Shown here: positions 3 to 12,745 of the stretch, one piece after another
How the letters are laid out: every line of letters starts with the position of its first letter
Position numbering within the stretch: the stretch's first letter is position 1
Assembly (NCBI GenBank): GCA_024224995.1
Contig: JAAENB010001238.1
Location: 1 to 12,745, forward strand
Reading direction: 5' to 3'
Source of the DNA: a bacterium
GTDB taxonomy: Bacteria; Spirochaetota; UBA4802; UBA5550
DNA: 12,745 nt
Program-made: the position numbers and the translations under genes
The notes under the pieces: model-generated
The model's input: the letters and a program-made list of their open reading frames with translations, nothing else
What the model was told of the DNA's origin: nothing
The model's database searches: none

Positions 3-1163
3 CTCATAGAACGGAACCTGAATCCAAACAGCTGGGAAAAAGGAGCGGTGGGCGATGACCGGTTTAGCTATTTTGTAGATTTTCCAATATCCATAATATA
101 TGAATCAGGCTTTATATCGCATCCCGATGAAGAGGAAGAGCTGCGCGATCCGAAGCATGTGAATAAGATCGTAAGCGCTCAATACGAGGCATTACTGGAG
201 ACAATAGCCGAAGTTTTTGGGGTTGATATGTTTAGAGAAGAGCCTGAATATACGGGAGTGTCTACCTATAATGAAATAGAGCTGTTAAAACTTGCCAGGG
301 TAGCGGTATATTATACCAGGCATGGAGAGCGGAAAAAGGCCATTGATATAATCAATGTTATGGAGCGGGAATACGGAAGAAGTAAATACGCCAAATATGT
401 AAAATATTACCGGGGAGTAAAACGAAGGCTCGTAACTGCGGAAAGATTTTATAACCGGGGACGAAAATACCAGGGGCTTCAGCGGAAATACCGGAAGCTT
501 TATCGCAAGTACGCGTTTTTGAGCAGGAAATATGCCAAAAAAAGGAGAGGGCAGTATGCCGGCACAGTAAAGCGTTACCGGAGAAACGCGAAGATATATG
601 CCAATAAAAGGAATGTATACGGTAGAAAAGCGCGAAAATATTTTAGAAAAGCACGGCGATATATTAGCGCGAAACCGCTTTTCGCGGTATACAGCAAGAA
701 ATATAATAAATCCCTTGGGCGAAAGAGAAAGAAGCGGCTGAGTCACCGCAAAAAACGCGTATATCGATATCCTGTAGCAGTGAAAAAGGCGTCCCGGTAC
801 ACCCCGATTATATTTACGGTAGAGAAGGGCGAGACCCTGAAGGCAGCCATAGACCGCGCGCTTTCGCCTTCGCCGAAAAACCTAAAAAAGCTGGTGCGGT
901 CCTTTAAGAAAGCCCGGGTGGTAAAATGGAAGAAATACCGCAGGTATTCGAGGAAAAGAAAGCGGAGAGTGACGTATTATAAAAAACGCGTACAAAAGAT
1001 ACATTTTGCCAGGGGGATCTATATTGTAGAGCTGAATCGCAAACTCCGGGTAACGAAAGTGAAAAAGGTAAAAAGAATACACTTAAATCCCTGGCGTTAC
1101 CAGAACCAGGAATATTTAAAAAATTCGTCTTTCGCAAGGAATGTCCGGGTCAAGGCCCTTTAG
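3..1163 (+). CDS. Lys/Arg/Tyr-rich protein of unknown function, 5' end outside window
   Basis: I do not recognise this protein. The reading frame is open to the left edge, so the GTG at 48 is probably internal: residues before it (…NPNSWEKGAVGDD…) continue the same style and no start was seen. Residue numbers here count from that GTG. The first ~110 residues are mixed and partly acidic, with a TPR-like helical stretch at ~77-125 (LARVAVYYTRHGERKKAIDI). From ~133 to 258 there is no Asp or Glu at all, and 31 of the 75 residues at 131-205 are Lys or Arg. Tyrosines at 141, 148, 155, 162, 170, 177, 184, 191, 198 and 205 are spaced by seven, with one step of eight. This suggests a long, very basic helix with an aromatic stripe. 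A nucleic-acid, polyanion or cell-wall binding role would fit the charge, but that is inference. The gene ends in TAG and is followed by an inverted B repeat. Confidence 0.8.
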   Translation, partial: LIERNLNPNSWEKGAVGDDRFSYFVDFPISIIYESGFISHPDEEEELRDPKHVNKIVSAQYEALLETIAEVFGVDMFREEPEYTGVSTYNEIELLKLARVAVYYTRHGERKKAIDIINVMEREYGRSKYAKYVKYYRGVKRRLVTAERFYNRGRKYQGLQRKYRKLYRKYAFLSRKYAKKRRGQYAGTVKRYRRNAKIYANKRNVYGRKARKYFRKARRYISAKPLFAVYSKKYNKSLGRKRKKRLSHRKKRVYRYPVAVKKASRYTPIIFTVEKGETLKAAIDRALSPSPKNLKKLVRSFKKARVVKWKKYRRYSRKRKRRVTYYKKRVQKIHFARGIYIVELNRKLRVTKVKKVKRIHLNPWRYQNQEYLKNSSFARNVRVKAL

Positions 1164-1232
1164 GTTAGAGTGCAGGAGAGGCATGCCCATCCGGCAAAAA
1201 CCTTGAACTCAGCTGACCCCGCAGAGCGGACC

Positions 1233-1314
1233 ATATATAAGGTATATCAACCCGGAATAACGTTTTTCGGTATATTGAGACAGTACCACGAAGCGGGGAA
1301 AAAATACGTCAGAA
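1233..1314 (-). repeat. Truncated inverted copy of the A-B compound repeat, lacking the B hairpin
   Basis: Read on the minus strand, 1282-1233 matches the two arms of the B module at 3483-3599 (ATATACCGAAAAACGT on one side, CCGGGTTGATATACCTTATA on the other). The central hairpin between them is missing, and so is one outer end. Positions 1293-1314 are a 22-nt perfect inverted match to 3454-3475, the linker that joins A to B in the complete copy. Order and relative orientation of linker and B are therefore the same as at the other loci. Module A is lost or replaced beyond 1314. The copy is either a deletion derivative or a form that never received the hairpin. Confidence 0.8.
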
Positions 1315-1395
1315 CCTTTGCAGGTGTTGACCCGGGACAACATCCCCCGGAAACCAAACCTCTGCACGAAGCATCTTCACAGAACAAGCCCGTAA

Positions 1396-1416
1396 AGACG
1401 TTGCACTGCAACGTCT
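1396..1416. repeat. Perfect short palindrome (10-bp arms)
   Basis: AGACGTTGCA and TGCAACGTCT are perfect inverted repeats separated by a single C. The palindrome lies 44 nt beyond the stop of the FlgN-like gene, on that gene's downstream side. No run of T follows on either strand, so it is not a classic intrinsic terminator. It resembles the short GTTGCA/TGCAAC palindromes dispersed in many bacterial genomes; that comparison is from memory and was not searched. Confidence 0.6.
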
Positions 1417-1459
1417 CAAAACAGACCCCCCCTATTTCAAAAGAGTTTCTTAAGAGCGC

Positions 1460-1906
1460 CTACTTCGTAAACTCCAGATTCTTCATACGCGCCAGATCTC
1501 CAATATCTTTCGATATGCTTTTGGCTTTATCCTGAAGAAGTTTCATGAGCTCGTCACGCTCTTTGGCGATTTCGGCAGCTTTAACTTCAATGGTGCCTCT
1601 GAGCTCTTTGATTTCGGAAATAAGAGGATCTTTGCTTTCGGTAATAGTCTTTTCGAAGGTATCATCGGCCATGCCCATAGTGGCCTTAAGCTGGTCTTTG
1701 ACGCGGCTAATGCTGAAATCGATACCGTCAATTTCATCGATAACATTGTTGTCATAAGAAAGAATATTGATGACAGAATCAACATCATCGGCGTCCAGTT
1801 TGTAGCGGGCTTCAACCTGGCGGGCGAACAAGCCGTTAAGAAGGCTGAATTTTTTCTTATACAGTGAAACGAGTTCAGGAAATATCATTTTTAAATCATC
1901 CCTCAA
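1460..1906 (-). CDS. FlgN-like flagellar export chaperone / coiled-coil protein
   Basis: A 148-residue, largely helical protein. Its middle (~15-75, LYKKKFSLLNGLFARQVEAR followed by spaced Leu/Ile/Val) and charged C-terminal coiled coil (~95-140, EIKELRGTIEVKAAEIAKER) resemble the FlgN/FliT class of small export chaperones. Those proteins hold hook-associated or filament-cap subunits for the flagellar secretion gate. The call rests on helical pattern, size and position directly after fliS, not on a diagnostic motif. The chosen start is a TTG at 1906 with AGGAAG eight bases upstream, which overlaps the fliS stop by 11 bp and implies coupled translation. The alternative ATG at 1888 has a poorly placed GAGG and would shorten the protein by six residues. 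It ends in TAG. Confidence 0.6.
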   Translation of the reverse strand: MRDDLKMIFPELVSLYKKKFSLLNGLFARQVEARYKLDADDVDSVINILSYDNNVIDEIDGIDFSISRVKDQLKATMGMADDTFEKTITESKDPLISEIKELRGTIEVKAAEIAKERDELMKLLQDKAKSISKDIGDLARMKNLEFTK

Positions 1907-2333
1907 TACTAAAACTTCCTTTACGGTCGATATTCATATTGCTGTCGGTCCTGGATTCGGTAGCGGAGATCTTTTCCCACGCGTCACGAAGCTCCCTGAG
2001 GTGAGTAACGACAGTCTGGATAATACCGGTATCCTTTTGAATATTGGCTTCAAGGAGCCTTTTTTTAAAATACATATACAAATTGAACAGGTTGTTCGAG
2101 ATTTCACCGCCCTCTTTCATGTTAAGAGAGAGCAGGAGCTCAGTAATAATATCCTGTGCTTTGATGATATTTGTATTAACAATATCATACGTCTTGGGCT
2201 CCATATTGTCAATAGCAATATTGAGAAATTTTATGGCGCCATCATAGAGCATAACAATCAATTTTCCCTGGCTTGCGGTAGTAACTTCGGTTTCTTTATA
2301 TTGGTTAAACGGGTTTTTTTTTGGCACAGCCAT
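1896..2333 (-). CDS. fliS: Flagellin export chaperone FliS
   Basis: A 145-residue protein of usual FliS length. FliS binds the C-terminal helix of flagellin in the cytoplasm, prevents premature polymerisation and delivers it to the flagellar type III export gate. Diagnostic features are the N-terminal NPFNQYKETEVTTASQGKLI and VMLYDGAIKFLNIA, followed by the helical NIIKAQDIITELLLSLNM and the NLFNLYMYFKKRL region that form the four-helix bundle. The ATG at 2333 is preferred because AGGAGAG lies seven bases upstream and the protein then begins MAVPKKNPF, as in the family. An extension upstream to 2372 is possible but has no family support. It lies 75 nt after purC and overlaps the FlgN-like gene, forming a small flagellar chaperone pair. 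Confidence 0.92.
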   Translation of the reverse strand: MAVPKKNPFNQYKETEVTTASQGKLIVMLYDGAIKFLNIAIDNMEPKTYDIVNTNIIKAQDIITELLLSLNMKEGGEISNNLFNLYMYFKKRLLEANIQKDTGIIQTVVTHLRELRDAWEKISATESRTDSNMNIDRKGSFSIEG

Positions 2334-2362
2334 ACAGCATCTCTCCTGGTGTGGTAATAGGG

Positions 2363-2389
2363 CGACAAACACCTCTAATCTTATTGTCG
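2363..2389 (-). promoter_or_regulatory. Small inverted repeat between purC and fliS
   Basis: CGACAA and TTGTCG form perfect 6-bp arms separated by 15 bases in the 75-nt gap before fliS. On the same strand, TTAAGT and TATACG lie 17 bases apart just upstream and are a weak sigma-70-like pair (3/6 and 4/6). fliS may therefore have some expression of its own, or simply read through from purC. Neither element is strong. Confidence 0.2.
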
Positions 2390-2408
2390 TATACTATGTC
2401 CCATAACT

Positions 2409-3296
2409 TTACTTAATAATTGCTTCTTTTATTCTTTTCAATATTGTTTCGTAAATTTTTTGGGTTTTTTCCACAATTTCATCGGGAAGCGGCGGCGGAG
2501 AAGAATTTTTGTCCCAGGAAGTCGTTTCCAGGTAGTCAAGGATAAACTGTTTGTCGAAACTGACGGGAGAAGAGCCTGCGGAATAGGCAGATTTGTCCCA
2601 GAAACTGGAACTGTCAGGGGTGAGCACTTCGTCAATAAGAATAAGTTCATTGTCAGAGAAGCCGAATTCGAATTTGGTGTCGGCAAGGATGATTCCGGCA
2701 GAATCCATGAGTTCTCTGGCGAATTCATAGAGATTAAGGGTAACTTCTCCAAGGTGCCCGGCAATATCATCGCCCAGTTTATCGCGAATTTCATTGATAG
2801 AAACATTAATATCATGACCGGAGTCGGCTTTTGTGGCCGGGGTAAAGAGCGGAGCGTCCAGCTGTTCTGCCAGCTGTAAGCCTTCAGGGAGAGGAATTCC
2901 GCAGATTTTACCCGATTTTTGATAATCTTTCCACCCGCTGCCAATAATATATCCCCTGGCAACGCACTCAAAATCGATTCTTTTGGTTCTTTTGACAATA
3001 ACAGACCGGTCTTTAAGCAGTTCAGGGAAATCGCAAAAGGGTTTAGGGAAATTATTGAAATTTTCTTCAACAATATGATTATTGATAAATTTTATCTTCG
3101 AAAACCAGAGATTGGCTATTTTATTTAGAATAACACCTTTACCGGGAATCCCCTTAGGAAAAACATGATCAAAGGCGGAAAACCGGTCCGAGGAAACAAT
3201 AAGCAGGTGTTCTTTGTCGATTTTATACAAATCCCTGACTTTACCGTTGTAGAACTTTTTAACTCCCGGTATTTTGATGTTAGTAACTGCTTCCAT
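2409..3296 (-). CDS. purC: Phosphoribosylaminoimidazole-succinocarboxamide synthase (SAICAR synthetase)
   Basis: PurC catalyses the ATP-dependent joining of CAIR and aspartate to give SAICAR in de novo purine synthesis, in the cytoplasm. The 295-residue length fits the long form of the family. Motifs in order: the nucleotide-binding GKVRDLY at 18-24, SSDRFSAFD at 35-43, RGYIIGSGW at 114-122, the substrate-binding PLFTPATKADSGHD at 149-162, LADTKFEFG at 204-212 and IDEVLTPDSSSFW at 221-233. All look intact. The ATG at 3296 follows a GAGAGA tract about ten bases upstream, at the edge of repeat module A. gatB precedes it on the same strand but is separated by ~330 bp of repeats. fliS follows after 75 nt. 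No other purine genes are in the window. Confidence 0.97.
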   Translation of the reverse strand: MEAVTNIKIPGVKKFYNGKVRDLYKIDKEHLLIVSSDRFSAFDHVFPKGIPGKGVILNKIANLWFSKIKFINNHIVEENFNNFPKPFCDFPELLKDRSVIVKRTKRIDFECVARGYIIGSGWKDYQKSGKICGIPLPEGLQLAEQLDAPLFTPATKADSGHDINVSINEIRDKLGDDIAGHLGEVTLNLYEFARELMDSAGIILADTKFEFGFSDNELILIDEVLTPDSSSFWDKSAYSAGSSPVSFDKQFILDYLETTSWDKNSSPPPLPDEIVEKTQKIYETILKRIKEAIIK

Positions 3297-3314
3297 CTTT
3301 TTTTTTCTCTCTCA

Positions 3315-3457
3315 AGAAACTAAATTTTGCTTGTGCGCGGGCTTGAAAGCATGGGCTCTTTGGATTGCTGCGGAACTCGCGTTGCTCAAACAGTCCTCAC
3401 AACCCAAAGAGCCCATACTTTCAAGCCGGATGCAGCTAGCAATACTATTTAGTTTCT
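3315..3457 (+). repeat. Repeat module A, copy 1 (143-bp palindrome)
   Basis: Terminal inverted repeats AGAAACTAAAT / ATTTAGTTTCT bound a long hairpin. Its central stem is 3340-3363 with 3404-3427, 23 of 24 positions complementary, the exception being a C-A mismatch. The apex is 3364-3403. The 36-nt apex core 3366-3401 is identical to that of copy 2 at 6448-6590, as are the outer arms in large part, but the inner stem (GGGCTCTTTGG) is unrelated to that of copy 2. The element ends 18 bp before the purC ATG and would be transcribed as its leader. No protein or transposase is encoded. Confidence 0.85.
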
Positions 3458-3482
3458 GACGTATTTTTTCCCCGCTACACAG

Positions 3483-3599
3483 GGTCGATCGTGTCTTAAT
3501 ATACCGAAAAACGTAATTCGGAATGTAGACTATACCCGATGTATTGCTCCGGGTATAGTTTACATTCCGGGTTCATATACCTTATACTAAGACGCGACC
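3483..3599 (+). repeat. Repeat module B, copy 1 (117-bp palindrome)
   Basis: Outer arms GGTCG…GTGTCTTAATATA and TATACTAAGACGCGACC are inverted repeats. Inside, CGGAATGTAGACTATACCCG pairs with CGGGTATAGTTTACATTCCG (19 of 20, the exception being a G-T pair) around an 11-nt apex. Copy 2 at 6681-6854 has the same arms with a G-C pair where this copy has A-T, a compensatory change, plus a much longer apex. It lies 27 bp beyond the gatB stop. Confidence 0.85.
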
Positions 3600-3626
3600 A
3601 CAGGGGCCGCACTCTCTCTCAAGAAA

Positions 3627-5063
3627 CTATTGAGAATCGAGCTTTTTTATTAATAGCTCATTAACCATTTGAGGATTGGCCTTTCCTTTTGATTCTTTCA
3701 TAACCTGGCCAACCAGAAATCCCAGGGCTTTCTTTTTCCCGGCTTTATAGTCTTCTATTGATTGCGGATTATTTGCCAGAATACTGTCAATAATAGGCTC
3801 AATAGACGAAACATCCGTTACCTGTTTAAGACCTTTTTCTTCCACAATGGTTTCCGGGTTTTTGCCCGATTCGAGCATTTCCTGTAAAACCTTTTTAGCG
3901 ATTTTACCGCTAATAGTGTTATTGTCGATAAGTTTGATAAGCTCTGCCAGCATGGAAGGGGTAACAATAAAAGAGTCTATTTTTTCCGGGTTCTCAACTT
4001 TAGCAAGCAATTCGCTCATGATCCAGTTCGACGCTTTTTTGGGATTGCCGCCCTCCTTAACAACAGCTTCGTAATAATCGGCAAGCTGCCGGGTGGAAGT
4101 AAGAACTTCAGCGTCATATTCGGGAAGAGAATAGTCGGAAATAAAGCGCTTGATCCTGGCAGCCGGAAGCTCGGGAAGCTCTTTCCTGATAGCTTCAATG
4201 TACTCATCATCAAGAATAACCGGGGCCAGGTCCGGGTCCGGGAAATAACGGTAATCATGGGCATTTTCTTTGGAACGCATGGAATATGTTTCGTTCGCGT
4301 CCGCGTCCCAGAGCCGTGTTTCCTGGACTATTTTTTCATCACTGGTGATTACCCTTTTTTGGCGGTCAATTTCATAATTTATAGAGGCTTTTACCGCTTT
4401 AAAGGAGTTCAGGTTTTTAATTTCAACCTTTTCACCAAACTTTGGAGCTCCTTTTTCCCGTATTGAGATATTAACATCGCAGCGAAGGCTTCCTTCTTCC
4501 ATATTAACATCAGATACATCAATATATTTCATGAGCATTTTAATATTTTGCAGATATTCATATGCTTCATCACCGGAGCGGATGTCGGGCTCTGAAACGA
4601 TTTCAGCCAGAGGAGTACCGCAGCGGTTAAGATCGACATAGGAAACCTGTTTTTCCGGATCTTCGGAGTGAATTGACTTTCCCGCGTCCTCTTCCAGGTG
4701 AAGCCTGGTAACGCCGATTCTTTTTTTACCGGCATCCGTGCTTATATCCACATATCCGCCCTCACAAATAGGCTTATCGTACTGAGAAATCTGGTATGCC
4801 TTGGGAAGATCAGGATAAAAATAATTTTTCCTGTCGAACTTGCTGTATTTTGCTATGTTTGAATTCAGGGCAAATCCCGCTAATATTGCTTTTTTCAGAG
4901 CTTCTTCGTTAAATACCGGAAGAACTCCCGGTAATGCCAGGCAGACCGGGCAGGTCTGGCTGTTGGGTTTCGCTCCGAATTTTGTAGAACAGGAGCAAAA
5001 TATTTTAGATTTAGTGTTTAGCTGGACATGTACTTCAAGTCCAATTACCGGTTCATATTCCAT
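3627..5063 (-). CDS. gatB: Aspartyl/glutamyl-tRNA(Asn/Gln) amidotransferase subunit B
   Basis: GatB binds the misacylated Glu-tRNA(Gln) or Asp-tRNA(Asn), activates the side chain with ATP and receives ammonia from GatA in the GatCAB complex. The protein is full length (478 residues). Visible features are the N-terminal YEPVIGLEVHVQL, a CxC…CPxC zinc-site arrangement (C23, C25, C38, C41), KNYFYPDLPKAYQISQYD, HLEEDAGKS, the NAHDYRYFPDPDLAPV motif, and the C-terminal YqeY-like tail ending GQVMKESKGKANPQMVNELL. The ATG at 5063 is chosen because GAGG lies five bases upstream and the protein then begins MEYEPVIGLE. The in-frame ATG at 5078 has no ribosome site. gatA and gatC are not in the window. 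Downstream the A-B repeat separates it from purC. Confidence 0.97.
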   Translation of the reverse strand: MEYEPVIGLEVHVQLNTKSKIFCSCSTKFGAKPNSQTCPVCLALPGVLPVFNEEALKKAILAGFALNSNIAKYSKFDRKNYFYPDLPKAYQISQYDKPICEGGYVDISTDAGKKRIGVTRLHLEEDAGKSIHSEDPEKQVSYVDLNRCGTPLAEIVSEPDIRSGDEAYEYLQNIKMLMKYIDVSDVNMEEGSLRCDVNISIREKGAPKFGEKVEIKNLNSFKAVKASINYEIDRQKRVITSDEKIVQETRLWDADANETYSMRSKENAHDYRYFPDPDLAPVILDDEYIEAIRKELPELPAARIKRFISDYSLPEYDAEVLTSTRQLADYYEAVVKEGGNPKKASNWIMSELLAKVENPEKIDSFIVTPSMLAELIKLIDNNTISGKIAKKVLQEMLESGKNPETIVEEKGLKQVTDVSSIEPIIDSILANNPQSIEDYKAGKKKALGFLVGQVMKESKGKANPQMVNELLIKKLDSQ

Positions 5064-5093
5064 AATATCCTCATACATTATAATCAGTTCGTA

Positions 5094-5122
5094 ATGAAAT
5101 AGATTCTTGATAATTTTGTCAA
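5094..5122 (-). promoter_or_regulatory. Likely sigma-70-type promoter for gatB
   Basis: On the minus strand a perfect TTGACA (5122-5117) is followed after 17 bases by TTTCAT (5099-5094), which matches four of six consensus -10 positions. Transcription would start near 5087, giving a leader of about 24 nt with the GAGG site just before the ATG at 5063. Confidence 0.5.
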
Positions 5123-5161
5123 GGAAAATGAGATTTACAGAAGCAATAAAGCATTAAGTAT

Positions 5162-5192
5162 TTGACTTTTATTCATATTACCTGTGTTTTAT
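5162..5192 (+). promoter_or_regulatory. Weak candidate promoter for the 5234 gene
   Basis: TTGACT at 5162-5167 is followed at a spacing of about 17-19 bases by TGTTTTAT, a poor -10. It faces the small membrane protein gene in the divergent region shared with gatB. No better candidate was seen there. Confidence 0.25.
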
Positions 5193-5233
5193 CAGTAACA
5201 ATTTTGAACTTGAACTACTCACAATACCTGGTT

Positions 5234-5755
5234 ATGAATAGAAAAACACAATTTATAGAACTCATACAGAAAAATGCAGCCGGAATTATTATATTTTTCA
5301 TGGTTTCGTCATTATTTGGTTACTTTTACGGAAGAGTTACGGGTTCTTTAATTATTAAGAGCTTTTTAACAAGCAGCAGGCGGTTATCGCTCATACTGTA
5401 TAGACCGGCAACTGAGTTCTATACAATGAGAAAGCTGCTTCGAAGCGAGAATGAACTTGAAAGACTTTCCGGCTATTACGCGCTCCTCGACAATAATATG
5501 ATTGATGAAGACTATTTGCTGGAACTCTATACCTTAGAGCCGTCCATTGTAGTAAAAAGAACCATTATATGGATACTCGGTTTTTCCGATGATTTTGACT
5601 CCGTAAAAAAAAGTTACAGTAAGATATACGCAAAAGCAGACCCTTTGATCAAAAATGAGATTCTTCGGACCCTCCGGAGAAACGATAAAGAATACTATCA
5701 AAAATTCATTGAACAACATAAAGTAAAAAGCGAAATATTGGATTTTCTAAAATAA
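5234..5755 (+). CDS. Small membrane-anchored protein with HEAT-like helical domain
   Basis: I do not recognise a named family. The 173-residue protein has a short N-terminus, one hydrophobic segment at ~14-33 (AAGIIIFFMVSSLFGYFYG) and then an entirely helical, charged domain. Within it, ENELERLSGYYALLDNN, LYTLEPSIVVKRTIIWILGF and DPLIKNEILRTLRRNDKEYY look like two or three short HEAT-type helical repeats of the kind that bind other proteins. The domain would lie on one side of the inner membrane; the topology was not resolved. The ATG at 5234 is chosen to give a normal N-terminus. The upstream TTG at 5162 coincides with a possible -35 box, and neither start has a good ribosome site. It is divergent from gatB, and its last 9 bp overlap the 3' end of the convergent methyltransferase-like gene. 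Confidence 0.75.
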   Translation: MNRKTQFIELIQKNAAGIIIFFMVSSLFGYFYGRVTGSLIIKSFLTSSRRLSLILYRPATEFYTMRKLLRSENELERLSGYYALLDNNMIDEDYLLELYTLEPSIVVKRTIIWILGFSDDFDSVKKSYSKIYAKADPLIKNEILRTLRRNDKEYYQKFIEQHKVKSEILDFLK

Positions 5756-6430
5756 AAAAGGGATAAACCGGTATTTTACCCTGGCCATATATTCCCGGTA
5801 TTCGGGCTGCTCTGCTAAAAACCGTTCTTCAAGAATAGCCCGGTAAATATAGCAGGCTGTTGAAAAAATAAAAATGCTTATGGTATACAGGGTACAGTGG
5901 CTTAAAACAAACCCAATTCTCAATAAAATATCGGTCCCGTACATGGGATGGCGGACAATAGAGTAGAGCCATGAGGTTTTTACCTCCCGCACAGCGATAA
6001 GTATCCCAAAACTCCTGCCCAGGTTAAGCAGGGTCAAAGCCCCGGCAACGTTCGCCGCAAAGGTTACAATCATTGATGCAGTTTGCGCCGTAGGGCTTCC
6101 CGTAAGGGGCTGGCCAATAAGAGCGATTCCCGAACAGAAGGCAAGCAGGGCAATTACCTGGTTAAAAAGACCCGGATCTACAGCCCGGTGCTCTTTCCGC
6201 ATAAGAATTACCATTACCAGTATCATATTCTGGATAATAAAAGCAATCTCAACATAATTCAATTCACCCGATATATACTTGTTATACGCGTGCCACCCGG
6301 TCCACCCTGCAACACAGAAAAACAGGTCCAGGTTAATGAGCAGCTGCCCGTATTTTTTTAAGAACAGGTATATCCGTGGAAACCGTACTTCCAGGAACGC
6401 AATAAATTTTAGTGTGATAGGCGTCTTCAT
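5747..6430 (-). CDS. Isoprenylcysteine/phospholipid methyltransferase-family membrane protein
   Basis: A 227-residue polytopic membrane protein with about five or six hydrophobic segments (~30-47, 58-77, 91-107, 114-139, 163-198). The C-terminus carries the family signature: VRHPMYGTDILLRIG at 159-173 with the conserved Arg-His-Pro, then YRAILEERFLAEQPEYREYMARVKYRFIPFL. In ICMT/PEMT-type enzymes this region binds S-adenosylmethionine. The substrate here is unknown; isoprenylcysteine itself is unlikely in a bacterium, and a lipid or small-molecule O- or N-methylation is possible. The ATG at 6430 is chosen, with GAGG ten bases upstream; an in-frame TTG at 6448 is a less likely start. Module A of the repeat begins 17 bp before the ATG, so the repeat forms the leader of any transcript from upstream. 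Confidence 0.85.
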   Translation of the reverse strand: MKTPITLKFIAFLEVRFPRIYLFLKKYGQLLINLDLFFCVAGWTGWHAYNKYISGELNYVEIAFIIQNMILVMVILMRKEHRAVDPGLFNQVIALLAFCSGIALIGQPLTGSPTAQTASMIVTFAANVAGALTLLNLGRSFGILIAVREVKTSWLYSIVRHPMYGTDILLRIGFVLSHCTLYTISIFIFSTACYIYRAILEERFLAEQPEYREYMARVKYRFIPFLF

Positions 6431-6447
6431 GGTCTTTTTTCCTCGCA

Positions 6448-6590
6448 AGAAACTAAATTGTGATTGTGAGCGGGCCTGAAAGCATCCCCTCTTCTAAATG
6501 CTGCGGAACTCGCGTTGCTCAAACAGTCCTCACATTTAGAAGAGGGGATACTTTCAGGCCAGATGCAGCTCGCAATAGTATATCGTTTCT
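6448..6590 (+). repeat. Repeat module A, copy 2 (143-bp palindrome)
   Basis: It has exactly the length of copy 1 and starts with the same AGAAACTAAAT. The stem 6473-6500 pairs with 6533-6560 at 27 of 28 positions. The one C-A mismatch falls at the same place as in copy 1 (GAAAGCAT / ATACTTTC). The 36-nt apex core (6499-6534) is identical to copy 1. The stem core between them (CCCCTCTTCTAAA) is unrelated to copy 1 but still self-complementary. It lies just upstream of the ribosome site of the methyltransferase-like gene. Confidence 0.85.
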
Positions 6591-6619
6591 GACCTGTTTT
6601 TTCTGCGGAGCTTTCTTAA

Positions 6620-6648
6620 AGAAAACAAAAAAAGAGACCTTTTGTCAA
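6620..6648 (-). promoter_or_regulatory. Weak candidate promoter in the A-B linker, facing the methyltransferase-like gene
   Basis: On the minus strand TTGACA (6648-6643) is followed after 17 bases by TTTTCT (6625-6620), a poor -10 matching three of six positions. If used, the transcript would begin near 6613 and carry the whole A hairpin as its 5' leader. Confidence 0.25.
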
Positions 6649-6680
6649 GGGTTTAACAAATTTTCTAATCCCCGAGCCCC

Positions 6681-6854
6681 GGTCGTGTCTTAATATACAG
6701 AAAAACGTAATTCGGAATGTAAACTATGCCCGGAGTGATGTCTCCGCGGGTTGTGAGGCTGTCTGAGCGGAGCGAGTTCCGAACGTTCTGCGGAGGCATT
6801 ACTCCGGGCATAGTTTACATTCCGGGTCGATATACCTTATATTAAGACGCAACC
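6681..6854 (+). repeat. Repeat module B, copy 2 (174-bp palindrome with long apex)
   Basis: The outer arms match copy 1 (GGTCGTGTCTTAATATA / TATATTAAGACGCAACC). The internal stem is longer, about 35 bp from CGGAATGTAAAC to the CTCCGC before the apex. It pairs with the right arm at all but two positions, and both exceptions are G-T. The apex contains GTTGTGAGG…CTGT…GAGC…CGAGTTCCG, a diverged reverse complement of the module A apex. This ties the A and B families together. Confidence 0.85.
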
Positions 6855-6860
6855 CTCGAC

Positions 6861-6904
6861 CCTGACTTTTCCGAATTTTTCTTGACTTTCCCGGAAGAGT
6901 CAGG
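6861..6904 (+). promoter_or_regulatory. Promoter-like box inside an inverted repeat upstream of the 6954 gene
   Basis: CCTGACTTTTCC (6861-6872) and GGAAGAGTCAGG (6893-6904) are inverted repeats with one G-T exception. Between them lies TTGACT (6882-6887), a -35-like box. A weak AATATC follows at 17 bases. The layout could be an operator over a promoter or a small leader hairpin. The -10 is poor, so the call is tentative. Confidence 0.3.
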
Positions 6905-6953
6905 AATATCAAATTATATCCAACAAGAAGAACTAATTTCAGGAGGGGGGATT

Positions 6954-7403
6954 ATGAAAAAGGTCTGTGATTTTTACATTAAACATGTTTCTCTAATTGG
7001 GGCGCTTTATTGTGCTGTTCCCGTAACTGTTGCGCTTATTGCAGGACTGGTAATGGTAGAGCAGTTCCGGGATGTTTATTTTCTCCGGTATGGATTATGT
7101 ATAACCCTGGGAAGCGGGCTGGGAGCGTATCTGAACAAGCATGGTCTTGAGATGTGGATTTCCCGGCACCGGGGAAGTATGGGACCGGGAACCGTGCTTC
7201 AAGGAGCTGTGGTTGGAGCGAAAATCGGAATCCTTCAGGCATTTTTTCCGGGACTCTTAGCACTCATCGGCAGCAATCATCCCGATCTTGCAATGAAGTA
7301 TATAGTAGCTTCTTCTCTCATCGCTACGGTTCTGGGATTTCTATTCGGAACTGTTCTCTCCCTTGTGGGGCGCAAGTACATTGAGAGAGAAACCCCGGCA
7401 TAA
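6954..7403 (+). CDS. Small four-helix integral membrane protein, unknown function
   Basis: I do not recognise a named family. The 149-residue protein has four likely membrane helices: ~12-34 (VSLIGALYCAVPVTVALIAG), ~42-60 (YFLRYGLCITLGSGLGAYL), ~80-106 (TVLQGAVVGAKIGILQAFFP) and ~114-138 (MKYIVASSLIATVLGFLFGT). The loop between helices 2 and 3 is short and basic (ISRHRGS), and the C-terminus is basic too, suggesting these face the cytoplasm. Helices 2-4 are rich in Gly and small residues, which suggests tight packing. The ATG at 6954 is set by a strong AGGAGG seven bases upstream; the frame is open further left to 6882 but without support. It is convergent with the kinase gene, and a large palindrome lies between them. 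Confidence 0.8.
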   Translation: MKKVCDFYIKHVSLIGALYCAVPVTVALIAGLVMVEQFRDVYFLRYGLCITLGSGLGAYLNKHGLEMWISRHRGSMGPGTVLQGAVVGAKIGILQAFFPGLLALIGSNHPDLAMKYIVASSLIATVLGFLFGTVLSLVGRKYIERETPA

Positions 7404-7414
7404 GGTAGGCGTAG

Positions 7415-7467
7415 GGTCCGGCACGTGTAGGGGCAACGGCGCGCCGTGCCCCTACACGTGCCGGACC
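7415..7467. repeat. Near-perfect 53-bp nested palindrome between convergent genes
   Basis: Arms 7415-7435 and 7447-7467 are perfectly complementary over 21 bp. The 11-nt centre is itself CGGCGCGCCG with one extra A at 7436. It can be read as a 29-bp palindrome (7427-7455, GTAGGGGCA…TGCCCCTAC) placed at the centre of another palindrome (GGTCCGGC / GCCGGACC), with ACGT on each side of the insert. On the plus strand only TTT follows and on the minus strand no T-run, so terminator function for the two convergent genes is possible but not classical. Confidence 0.75.
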
Positions 7468-9500: not shown

Positions 9501-11264
9501 TTATTTTGTATAATAAACCCATAATTCACGGCCGGCACCGTTATCTGCGTTCGCGGAAAAGTAGAGTTTATCGTTAAAAACCGTCAGGTGTTTGGGTTCG
9601 GAGTGACCGTTGTCGCCGTCAATATTCATGGCAACAGAGGGAGCATTGGTACCGTCATAGCACCAGAGTTCGTATCCCCGGCCGGAAGCAAGGGCCTGAA
9701 AATAGAGTTTGTTCCGGTAGACAGCGAGGTGTTCAGGTTGTGAGCCGACAAAACCCGGGTATAGGTCAAATTCGGTAAACGCTTCCGCCGCTACCGGGTT
9801 CGCGTTATAACTCCAGAGCTCCATTCCATTGTCCGGACCCTCAGCACTAAAGAACAGGGTGTCGTTAAAAACAACAAGATCCACAGGGTTAAAACTACCC
9901 ATAATCGAATCGTACATATCGGCAATTTCCGATGGTTCGTTAGTACCGTCATATTTCCAGAGTTCCCCGCTATGACCCTGTTCGTCCCTGGCCTGGAAGT
10001 ATAATGCATTATTAAATACAGCCAGGTGAGAAACATCAGCGCTGCCGGAGCCGTCGTAAATATCCACTACCAGTGAAGGAGCATTGGTTCCGTCATAGGA
10101 CCAGAGCTCGGCACCCAGAGAGGACCATTGGCCTGCCTGGAAATAGAGTTTATTGTTAAAGATAGTCATGTAGGATGGTTCAGAGCCCATTATACCGGGA
10201 ATGATATCGGCAATTTCCGAAGCGGAAGTGCCGTTGTATTTCCAGAGTTCTTCACCGTTTCCCGACCCGTTGTCGGCCTGGAAATAGAGCTCACCCTGAA
10301 AAACCGTAAGGTAACAGGGATTGGACCCATTGTATTGATCTCCGGTATAAATATCCGCAGCTTCTTCAGGAGCACTAATGCCGTTGTAGCGCCAGAGTTC
10401 AGTACCGTTAGAACCGCCGTCGGCAGCGAAATAGAGCTCGCCATTGAATACAGCCATATGCTCCGGGTTTGAACCATCGCTATCACCATCAATATTCGCA
10501 ACCATTTGAACAACAGCGTCTTCAAAATCGAGACCAATCCCGCTAGCGGATTCGCCCATATCATTGGCAGTGTAAACCAGGAGATGGGTCGCGCCCGCGG
10601 GAACAGCGGAATCCGCGGCAAGAGTAAAATTCAGGTTGCTGCCGCTTGCGGCCAGGGTTTCTATTGCCGTAGAAAGTACGGCCGATTTGGTAACGGCGTT
10701 CTCCCCCCAATAGAGGCGGTACTCCGTAATATTGCTTTCATCAGCGGCGGGGGTAACCGTAACAGTGCCTGTTAATTCATCTTCAGTACCATCGGAGTCA
10801 ACGGGAAAGCTAATTCCGGCGGCGTTTGTCAAAGGAACGGTACGGTCGGTTACGGGGCAGCTCGTACCGGATGATATCTCACCATATTTATTTGCCGTAA
10901 CAACGAGCAGGAGAGAAGCACCTGCCGGGAAAACGGTATTTTCAGGGATGGTATAGGATATGTCAGTTCCCTTCGCTGGAAAAGAGGCGATTACTCCCGA
11001 GAGCCTGGTTGAGGGGGAGGAACCCCAGTAGAGGCGGTATTCGTCTATATCGCTTTCATCATCAGCATGGGAAATGGAGACGGGCAGGGAAACCTCGTTT
11101 GTGCCGGGATCGGTGTCCGCACCTGCGGAAATACCGCGCGCCGAATCATCAGGAGCCATAACTCCGCCGAAACCCTCCCAGCAGCCGGAAAGAGATAAAG
11201 AAACAGCCAGTATAATGGCTAATAGAGTGTAATAAGATAAACTTTTATTCATTTTATAATCCAT
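9501..11264 (-). CDS. ELWxxDGT-repeat lipoprotein, predicted seven-bladed propeller (downstream paralogue)
   Basis: The N-terminus has a lipoprotein signal (MNKSLSYYTLLAIILAVSLSLSGC), so the mature protein is probably lipid-anchored at its Cys and exported. Next come two ~100-residue beta-sandwich-like repeats, each with EYRLYWG and a PAGA..LLV.TAN..GE ending, similar in layout to fibronectin type III domains. Then follow seven ~46-residue repeats of the ELWxxDGT type (xxLAVFNxxLYFxAxxxxxGxELWxYDGT), the last ending ELWVYYTK. Seven repeats suggest one closed beta-propeller. Ligand and role are unknown. The ATG at 11264 overlaps the upstream stop as TAATG, implying coupling; the ATG at 11252 (four residues shorter) is an equally possible start. 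It is a paralogue of the adjacent upstream gene. Confidence 0.85.
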   Translation of the reverse strand: MDYKMNKSLSYYTLLAIILAVSLSLSGCWEGFGGVMAPDDSARGISAGADTDPGTNEVSLPVSISHADDESDIDEYRLYWGSSPSTRLSGVIASFPAKGTDISYTIPENTVFPAGASLLLVVTANKYGEISSGTSCPVTDRTVPLTNAAGISFPVDSDGTEDELTGTVTVTPAADESNITEYRLYWGENAVTKSAVLSTAIETLAASGSNLNFTLAADSAVPAGATHLLVYTANDMGESASGIGLDFEDAVVQMVANIDGDSDGSNPEHMAVFNGELYFAADGGSNGTELWRYNGISAPEEAADIYTGDQYNGSNPCYLTVFQGELYFQADNGSGNGEELWKYNGTSASEIADIIPGIMGSEPSYMTIFNNKLYFQAGQWSSLGAELWSYDGTNAPSLVVDIYDGSGSADVSHLAVFNNALYFQARDEQGHSGELWKYDGTNEPSEIADMYDSIMGSFNPVDLVVFNDTLFFSAEGPDNGMELWSYNANPVAAEAFTEFDLYPGFVGSQPEHLAVYRNKLYFQALASGRGYELWCYDGTNAPSVAMNIDGDNGHSEPKHLTVFNDKLYFSANADNGAGRELWVYYTK

Positions 11265-12745
11265 TATTTTACGTAGAAGACCCATAATTCACGACCGGCA
11301 CCATTGTACCCGTTCGCGGAAAAGTAGAGTTTATTGTTAAAAACAGTTAAATGCTCGGGGTAGGAGCTGTTGTTATCCCCGTCAATATTAAAAGCCTCGT
11401 AAGGGGCATTAGACCCGTCATAGCACCAGAGTTCAGCACCGTTGCCGCTCGATCCCCGGGCCTGGAAATAGAGTTTATTTCTGAAAACCGTAAGGAACCT
11501 GGGGCTAGAACTATTAGATCCCGTGTTTATATCAATTTCCTCAAAACCGTCTTCAGGAACAGGATTGGAGGCATAACTCCAGAGCTCGGTCCCGTTTTCC
11601 GTATCACCTTCGGCACTGAAATACAAGCGGTCGTTAAAGACTGCTAAATGCTCGGGATAAAAAGCATCAAACGTTCCGGTCTTCATGTCGGCAATTTCCG
11701 TGGCCGTGGAGCCGTCATATTTCCAGAGTTCATAGTTATGCCCGTTCCCGTCACGGGCATTGAAATATAATTCGCCATTGAATACTGCCAGGTGAGTAGG
11801 ATCGGAACTTTGTCCGTCATAGATATCAACAACCAGGGAGGGATCGGAAACCCCGTCATAGGACCAGAGTTCCGAGTTACCCGGTAAAAAGACAGAGCAT
11901 CTGAAAAAGAGTTTATTGTTAAAAACCGTTAAATAATCGGGTTCCATACCTGAATAGCCGGGAACATAGTCACCCATTTCAACAGCAGTGACCCCATTGT
12001 ATTTCCAGAGTTCCAGGCCGTGACTTGTAGAGCCGCTGGCCTGAAAGTAGAGTTCATCCTGAAAAACAGCAAGGTGTTTGGGATCGGAACCAAAAAAACC
12101 GGTGTACATATCAGCTGCTTCTTCCGGAGGATTTACCCCGTCATACCGCAAGAGCTCATTACCAATTGAACCGTTGTTGGCGGCGAAATAGAGTTTGTTG
12201 TCAAAAACTACCATATATTCCGGGTTTGAGCCGGAACCGGACCCGTCTATATTACAGGCCATTTTCAGGATCTCATCATCAAAATCGAGCGCAATTCCGC
12301 TTGCGGCTTCACCCAGATTATTTGCCGTAAAAACCAGCAGGTGAGAGGCTCCTGTGGGAACCGAAGTATTTTCCGGAAGAGAAAAGTTTAAATCGCTCCC
12401 TGTTGCTGCCAGGGACTCAATAGGAGTGGTATGGCCCGGGAGTTTGCAGTTTTCGTTTTCACCCCAGTAGAGACGGTATTCCGTAATATTATTTTCAATA
12501 GAGGCGCGGGTAACGGCAACAGTCCCTCCAAGTTCATCTTCATCCCGGTCTGTATCATGGATAAATGAAATACCCCGGGCATTGACAAGGGGAACAGTAC
12601 GGTCCGAAATGGAACAGTAGGCGCCCGATGTTTTTTCACCATACTTGTTCGCGGTAATAACCAGCAAGAACGAGGCTCCCGTAGGAAGAACGGTATTTTC
12701 GGGAATGGTATAACATATGTCTGCACCCTGTGCCGGAAAAGAGAT
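11264..12745 (-). CDS. ELWxxDGT-repeat protein, upstream paralogue, 5' end outside window
   Basis: The frame is open to the right edge, and its first visible residues (ISFPAQGADICYTIPENTVL) align with the first sandwich repeat of the downstream paralogue. The true start and any signal peptide therefore lie outside. The 493 visible residues contain the end of that repeat, a full second one (EYRLYWGEN…) and seven ELWxxDGT blades: ELLRYDG, ELWKYNG, ELWSYDG, ELWKYDG, ELWSYAS, ELWCYDG and ELWVFY. Each blade matches its counterpart at the same position in the neighbour (for example the fifth lacks DGT in both, the sixth has ELWC in both), so the whole gene was duplicated. It is presumably exported like its neighbour. 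Its TAA stop overlaps the next ATG by one base. Confidence 0.88.
   Translation of the reverse strand: MSFPAQGADICYTIPENTVLPTGASFLLVITANKYGEKTSGAYCSISDRTVPLVNARGISFIHDTDRDEDELGGTVAVTRASIENNITEYRLYWGENENCKLPGHTTPIESLAATGSDLNFSLPENTSVPTGASHLLVFTANNLGEAASGIALDFDDEILKMACNIDGSGSGSNPEYMVVFDNKLYFAANNGSIGNELLRYDGVNPPEEAADMYTGFFGSDPKHLAVFQDELYFQASGSTSHGLELWKYNGVTAVEMGDYVPGYSGMEPDYLTVFNNKLFFRCSVFLPGNSELWSYDGVSDPSLVVDIYDGQSSDPTHLAVFNGELYFNARDGNGHNYELWKYDGSTATEIADMKTGTFDAFYPEHLAVFNDRLYFSAEGDTENGTELWSYASNPVPEDGFEEIDINTGSNSSSPRFLTVFRNKLYFQARGSSGNGAELWCYDGSNAPYEAFNIDGDNNSSYPEHLTVFNNKLYFSANGYNGAGRELWVFYVK

Follow-up and report, generated by a model that had tools for sequence, protein, structure and literature searches.

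Compound A-B palindromes in a spirochaete contig: probable copies of an unnamed family of mobile repeats with a conserved core

Known small repeats and the A-B units of the window

BOX elements are built of joined modules, box A, box B and box C. In the pneumococcus these small, dispersed and highly structured repeats are regarded by the authors as parasitic, slow-moving and likely to affect co-transcribed genes (PMC3049150). Repetitive extragenic palindromes (REPs) of the GTAG and CGTC types are units of 20–40 base pairs (bp) with stems of 5–13 or 8–9 bp, the CGTC repeats having been reported in Spirochaetes; mobilisation by Y1/RAYT transposases is considered possible for REPs, REPtrons and TIRtrons, and some terminal inverted repeats (TIRs) have self-complementary tracts; and miniature inverted-repeat transposable elements (MITEs) measure 70–300 bp, with TIRs of 15–30 bp and no coding capacity (PMC3733652). 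The Chunjie MITE, according to the title by which it is cited, sits in an operon without disturbing it (PMC10969869), and template-switching hairpins, described for RNA genes, account for many-base compensatory change and perfect stems (PMC8794818). The present text concerns compound palindromes, here called A-B units, in contig JAAENB010001238.1 (assembly GCA_024224995.1), the 12,745 nucleotides (nt) of which are referred to as the window.

The A-B units are probably copies of a non-coding mobile element that belongs to an unnamed family of dispersed small palindromic repeats. What distinguishes the family is a conserved internal-loop core (GAGGACTGTYTGAG / CGAGTTCCGCAG) close to the tip of a long palindrome, and a unit of about 300 nt lies in the gatB-purC gap of the window, where it is missing in relatives. 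As in BOX elements, small structured interspersed repeats are made of joined modules, a likeness of description; unlike them, the family of the window keeps its core across phyla while the arms change. The habit of dispersed palindromes is shared with REPs, whereas nested palindromes of 117–174 nt, with inner arms of 20–35 nt and an internal core, fall outside the REP size. Size, absence of coding capacity and hairpin effects on neighbours (PMC10969869) recall MITEs, but regular TIRs with target duplication were not seen outside copy 1. Template switching has been described for hairpins of RNA genes, whereas the case of the window would be a mobile repeat family. The family differs from BOX elements, REPs and MITEs by its conserved internal core and free arms, and resembles them in size class and habit.

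The features of the units are as follows; R1 denotes a covariance model of the core.

3315..3457, minus strand: module A copy 1 (A1), a long imperfect palindrome (outer arms AGAAACTAAAT/ATTTAGTTTCT) directly 5′ of purC, between that gene and gatB
3368..3398, minus strand: conserved core of A1, minus-strand sequence GAGGACTGTTTGAGCAACGCGAGTTCCGCAG; R1 match of 60.4 bits over 3353–3413
3353..3367, pairing with 3400–3414: arms of the innermost stem of A1, unlike A2 in sequence, complementarity kept
3454..3475: A1-B1 linker, the same as the complement of 1293–1314
3483..3599: module B copy 1 (B1), a palindrome without the core
3306..3322, plus strand: left copy of a 17-nt direct repeat, TCTCTCTCAAGAAACTA, flanking A1-B1
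3613..3629, plus strand: right copy of the 17-nt direct repeat, overlapping the gatB stop codon
6448..6590, minus strand: module A copy 2 (A2), just 5′ of a PEMT/ICMT-like gene
6501..6531, minus strand: conserved core of A2, the same as that of A1; R1 match of 62.5 bits over 6486–6546
6681..6854, plus strand: module B copy 2 (B2), a palindrome with a degenerate core
6755..6781, plus strand: degenerate core of B2, GAGGCTGTCTGAGCGGAGCGAGTTCCG; R1 match of 33.8 bits over 6740–6798
1233..1317, minus strand: inverted remnant, consisting of B minus its inner hairpin, the linker and the tip of A

The original prediction, made from the letters of the window, had placed compound A-B palindromes at 3315–3599 and 6448–6854, and direct and nested inverted repeats confirm them there. 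The A modules form a direct repeat (3302–3470 and 6435–6603) with 82% identity over 169 nt, and the B modules match at 3486–3538/6680–6732 (92%) and 3538–3599/6793–6854 (87%). The further palindromes that were claimed at the module centres are borne out by inner inverted repeats of 93–96% identity, namely 3340–3367/3400–3427 (93%) and 6473–6500/6533–6560 (96%) in the A modules, and 6713–6747/6790–6824 (94%) and 3519–3538/3550–3569 (95%) in the B modules. The supposed inverted and truncated third copy proved to be a deleted remnant that can be matched to unit 1 segment by segment (inverted, 1255–1282 with 3492–3519 and 1236–1258 with 3564–3586; linker, 1292–1317 with 3451–3476, 26 nt at 96%). 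Almost the whole of A is missing from it, as is the hairpin inside B, and the 22-nt linker identity noted earlier is present within it. R1 matches only A1, A2 and the degenerate B2 in the window, leaving B1 unmatched. Folding was far more stable than in shuffled sequences for 3311–3467 as RNA (z −9.2), B2 as DNA (z −9.5) and B1 as DNA (z −5.6), with none of 200 shuffles as stable for any of the three stretches.

The A2-B2 linker contains about 60 nt (6612–6674), with a short inverted repeat of their own, that are missing from the A1-B1 linker. A sigma-70-like site (TTTACA, 18 nt, TATACT or TATATT) occupies the same place on the plus strand of both B modules (3559–3588 and 6814–6843); such sites number 19 in 1150–7000, with 12.0 expected.

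As the original prediction had it, the repeats match no family that can be named: Rfam 15 at the gathering score gave no match in the window or in seven loci with core copies, and a literature search by core and box strings returned unrelated plant papers only. As far as the literature searched and Rfam go, the family is undescribed. With lax filters two candidates appeared at chance level and were rejected, mir-iab-4 on the inner hairpin of B1 (21.7 bits, cut-off 73, E 0.52) and RAGATH-27 on gatB (30.2 bits, cut-off 76.1, E 0.43).

The conserved core and its covarying arms

The centre of A, on the minus strand GAGGACTGTYTGAG-apex-CGAGTTCCGCAG, is kept while the arms vary, a feature that the original prediction did not bring out, and it recurs nearly letter for letter inside quite different hairpins across related genomes. 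Both halves are almost invariant in 37 aligned copies (an alignment that omits L125, whose core is that of L117; L146, a near-twin of L143; L096; and three copies of genome G021). In the same alignment, the stems on either side of the core covary (0.440, against 0.178 with standard deviation 0.016 after shuffling, and 0 of 500 shuffles; best slid register, 0.207), although both controls are limited, since shuffles keep relatedness and structures read from sequences tend to beat slid ones. Double-changed cells number 156 against 71.5. Watson–Crick arm cells in 35 copies amount to 272 of 420, compared with a permuted mean of 169.6 and a maximum of 198 in 1,000 permutations, and helices hold 13.1 pairs on average in 92 copies, compared with 1.1 in a single draw that combined arms of different genomes.

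Within the window, between A1 and A2, 14 of 30 innermost-stem bases differ against 16 of 139 elsewhere (P 4e-5, with the right-arm window one base off register), and by reading of their alignment seven of eight changed pairs had changed on both sides. The variable stem is the one adjacent to the core in G035 and the window, and the outer one in G005 and G019. One core copy, L274 (G025 C52 55593–55684), has part of the core tandemly duplicated.

Wobble pairs in the helices of the 92 copies gave no strand preference (12 G-U against 7 A-C, P 0.36; previous tallies, drawn in other ways, stood at 33 to 37 and 8 to 4), and the lack of a significant bias fits pairing kept at the DNA level, for example by template switching (PMC8794818). 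If the units are mobile, A1-B1 would have been inserted by transposition or recombination, and an enzyme acting in trans may recognise the folded hairpin, either as RNA or as DNA left single-stranded during replication. Recognition is probably of the folded single strand and could proceed through the core, not through a fixed terminal sequence, while template switching during replication would keep the drifting arms complementary. On general grounds only, a single-strand (HUH-type) transposase would be a candidate for the enzyme. The hairpins left in the purC leader and in that of the PEMT-like gene may incidentally modulate the expression of these genes.

Arm covariation also speaks for a structured RNA acting in cis or in trans, in which the core would be a protein-bound internal-loop motif and the leader copies would regulate the genes downstream. 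Consistent with such leaders, A1 and A2 each end 17–18 nt 5′ of a minus-strand start codon (purC, ATG 3296; PEMT/ICMT-like gene, ATG 6430). By reading of the alignment, GA steps of the core flank its apical stem on either side, in the manner of a kink-turn. The overall lack of strand preference and the absence of Rfam matches at the cut-offs argue against a structured RNA, as do the copy numbers and gene neighbourhoods given below, and we consider it unlikely.

Spread of the family and its probable insertion sites

Among the best 80 GatB matches listed, the closest to the window is that of G001, a spirochaete metagenome-assembled genome (locus L001), with 77% identity, the next being at most 61% identical; by PurC several relatives of G001 are equally close, at up to 74%. 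A spirochaete is the most likely source of the window. The label "spirochaete" for these relatives rests on their selection as relatives of G001. A search with the whole A1-B1 unit as DNA was negative in two genomes, and the unit was not found in 148 relatives, where A1-B1 as query (not A2-B2) gave only weak matches of 23–38 nt in four. One of the four, in L083, falls on the centre of A, which there occupies the loop of a palindrome whose arms are different.

The core itself is dispersed. When the apex was kept narrow, its pattern occurred in 1 of the 392 genomes scanned in the phylum; widening the apex to at most 20 nt gave 33 copies in 9 of 118 relatives of G035. The backward pattern gave none, here or in the other pattern scans of genomes, six in all. 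Two of the 33 copies belong to G001, with arms unlike those of the window, and the outer ends of the G001 copies read as inverted repeats. Of the 118 relatives of G001, 16 matched R1 at an E of 0.001 or better, with 83 matches in total, among them 34 in G021, 11 in G035 and 9 in G017. The copies of G021 grade from intact to decayed, as expected of an old dispersed repeat. A copy number that ranges from 0 to 34 among relatives, and translated neighbours (read without annotation) that differ in look between copies and lie on either strand, both tell against a structured RNA. The earlier proposal of a mobile or structured-RNA family was upheld in part: a structured, apparently mobile family with multicopy relatives and an empty site was found, but A1-B1 itself does not recur, its core being met with other arms.

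Beyond the relatives, the core pattern was present in 3 of 229 genomes of the gammaproteobacterial class of G393, a Sediminihaliea genome; the stricter, wide-apex pattern gave none in 349 genomes of its phylum. In viral contigs the narrow pattern gave no match, a looser one 16, of which L094 and L104 were accepted by eye and L096 by R1, the last with a core variant resembling that of B2, and a third pattern six, including the weak L111 (R1 E 0.0075). A near-identical core pattern occurred in 2 of 29 mixed records, solely the two virus records. By similarity, A1-B1 was unmatched in plasmids and A2-B2 in phages, and the core as query made weak matches in both. Several looser core-like copies lie on the Ilyobacter polytropus plasmid pILYOP01 (L115, L116; R1 E 0.011 to 0.63), where they adjoin a hairpin, GTTACTTTTC..GAAAAGTAAC, the loop of which can pair just downstream. 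A pseudoknot beside the L104-type core, seen in L104 and Ilyobacter, was not general and was dropped. In L104 (1199–1468) the element reads through as a small hypothetical protein, and the frame is matched by 163 proteins at E 0.001 or better, some of the best 120 listed being named for Gallionella or its family; protein frames over such elements are most likely spurious.

A wider and more doubtful proposal is that these are mobile palindromes recognised by an internal core and not by their ends, with arms free to change and rewritten as a pair, so that each genome would have its own arms around a core of about 26 conserved bases common to spirochaetes, gammaproteobacteria and virus-like contigs. 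If these readings are right, a widespread family of small repeats would have been overlooked, its arms defeating sequence searches and its copies callable as hypothetical proteins. The family would also serve as a natural experiment on the upkeep of perfect long palindromes in the face of sequence change, and on structure recognition by a mobilising enzyme.

The probable insertion in the window lies between the following genes, with A2 preceding a third.

2409..3296, minus strand: purC (SAICAR synthetase), downstream of insertion 1; PF01259
3627..5078, minus strand: gatB, upstream of insertion 1; PF02934, PF02637
5747..6430, minus strand: PEMT/ICMT-like gene, downstream of A2; PF04191 at 25.3 bits (cut-off 25)

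The gatB-purC gap is 330 nt in the window, and 1–54 nt in each of the 19 relatives where the two could be viewed together in one orientation; in G001 the two genes are 20 nt apart. The survey covered 30 of 48 purC matches; 11 of the 30 had no gatB hit in the stretch, L001 was the G001 locus again and L012 was without purC. That gatB-purC has no such leader in these 19 relatives is a further point against a regulatory RNA. The family has met the purC neighbourhood in relatives, but inside no gatB-purC pair seen.

The short gaps also bear on whether intrinsic terminators, or other hairpins, were invaded by a short core sequence, since the 19 gaps (unfolded) suggest empty sites without a pre-existing hairpin. 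Such an invasion is favoured by the T run that comes after the inner stem, on both strands, in copies of the G021 type, and by the variation of the outer arms between copies in G005 and G019. However, within each of G021, G025, G035 and G043 the copies have arm sequence in common, and 1150–7000 of the window holds five terminator-like sites (5.7 expected), only one of them in a module, a 7-pair hairpin at 3339–3358 in one arm of A1. We regard such an invasion as very unlikely.

Several observations weigh against a mobile element. An exact 17-nt direct repeat bounds A1-B1 (3306–3322 and 3613–3629; the longest word shared in 4,824 control windows was 14), but it is partly the end of A, being present at A2 too, so that recombination at a shared core may account for it instead of plain duplication of the target. 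The flanks of copy 2 have no direct repeat beyond chance, and copies other than copy 1 showed no consistent flanking direct repeats. In three of the 11 loci without gatB in view, the neighbourhood of purC does contain the element or parts of it. A half-element precedes purC by some 210–250 nt in L171, where a full core copy also lies about 1.2 kb ahead of the gene, and by some 290 nt in L168; in L174 element-like sequence follows purC. The two half-elements, and the wobble pairs of the window taken alone (five G-U, no A-C), lean towards an RNA role. The G019 copy between infB and rbfA, in a gap of 213 nt, is only compatible with insertion and offers no clean empty site, the spacer measuring 86–261 nt in the five best-matching relatives (core-less by eye, and unrelated) and 1–80 nt in the other 24. 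In 17 of the 92 copies the core falls within an open frame of 150 codons or more, so that not every copy is proved intergenic. Lastly, no enzyme was tied to the family by the comparison of Y1 genes that follows, and no transposition was seen.

The half-elements of L171 (1254–1288) and L168 (2659–2693) are the same half of the element, and possibly mark a shared old insertion site.

Y1 transposases and gene surroundings

The original prediction had pointed to a RAYT or IS200-type transposase, a link that the data leave unsupported. Y1_Tnp genes were present in 35 of the 40 genomes searched, in 14 of 14 with an R1 core and 21 of 26 without (Fisher P 0.14), and in 9 of 9 against 26 of 31 when genomes were divided by the pattern with an apex of up to 20 nt (P 0.57). 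The reading of loci covered every one of the 45 Y1 matches in the nine pattern-positive genomes, but not those in seven further model-positive ones. Element sequence was found near 5 of the 45, against 4 of 16 control loci (purC and rbfA of the same genomes, P 0.22; control stretches on average not longer, and the rbfA locus of G019, chosen for its copy, excluded), one of the five resting on matches of 25–27 nt only and one control on a match of 19 nt only. Since 4 of 16 controls carry element sequence, nearness to Y1 genes means nothing yet, and the link, suggestive at first, was dropped as evidence.

These counts also bear on the proposal that the palindromes are solitary ends of a Y1/RAYT transposon, or TIRtron as the term is used in PMC3733652, and have been spread by one RAYT subfamily. 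The presence of Y1 genes in every core-positive genome is in keeping with it, as are two full copies near Y1 genes in G017 (0.28 expected from density, P 0.03) and a copy without the core on contig C19 of G001 (L332, 5139–5227), about 180 bp 5′ of a RAYT-like frame; the remaining two of the five loci are both of those in G035, with remnants or short matches. The frequency of Y1 genes in core-negative genomes and the comparison with control loci argue the other way. Moreover, no Y1 gene at the 45 loci was seen flanked by the element on both sides, and G021, with its 34 copies, had no element sequence at its three Y1 loci. A TIRtron origin thus appears quite unlikely. No autonomous relative of the mobile element was met, in a search confined to Y1 genes. 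The RAYT-like frame of L332 is itself preceded by several CTCTGRGG repeats.

The genes around the units are ordinary ones (fliS, purC, gatB, the PEMT/ICMT-like gene and a hybrid sensor kinase), and a Pfam scan of ten window frames left five without a match. A frame of 371 amino acids at 48–1163, without a Pfam match, has a very high content of Lys, Arg and Tyr. At 7415–7467, between a small Pfam-less frame and the sensor kinase, two inverted 21-nt arms match perfectly across an 11-nt spacer (GGTCCGGCACGTGTAGGGGCA); by eye this repeat is unlike A or B. Two adjacent large frames at 9501–12667, with repeats of about 141–144 nt (ELW.YDG motifs), are 70–77% alike over long stretches and look like a tandem duplication of a repeat protein.

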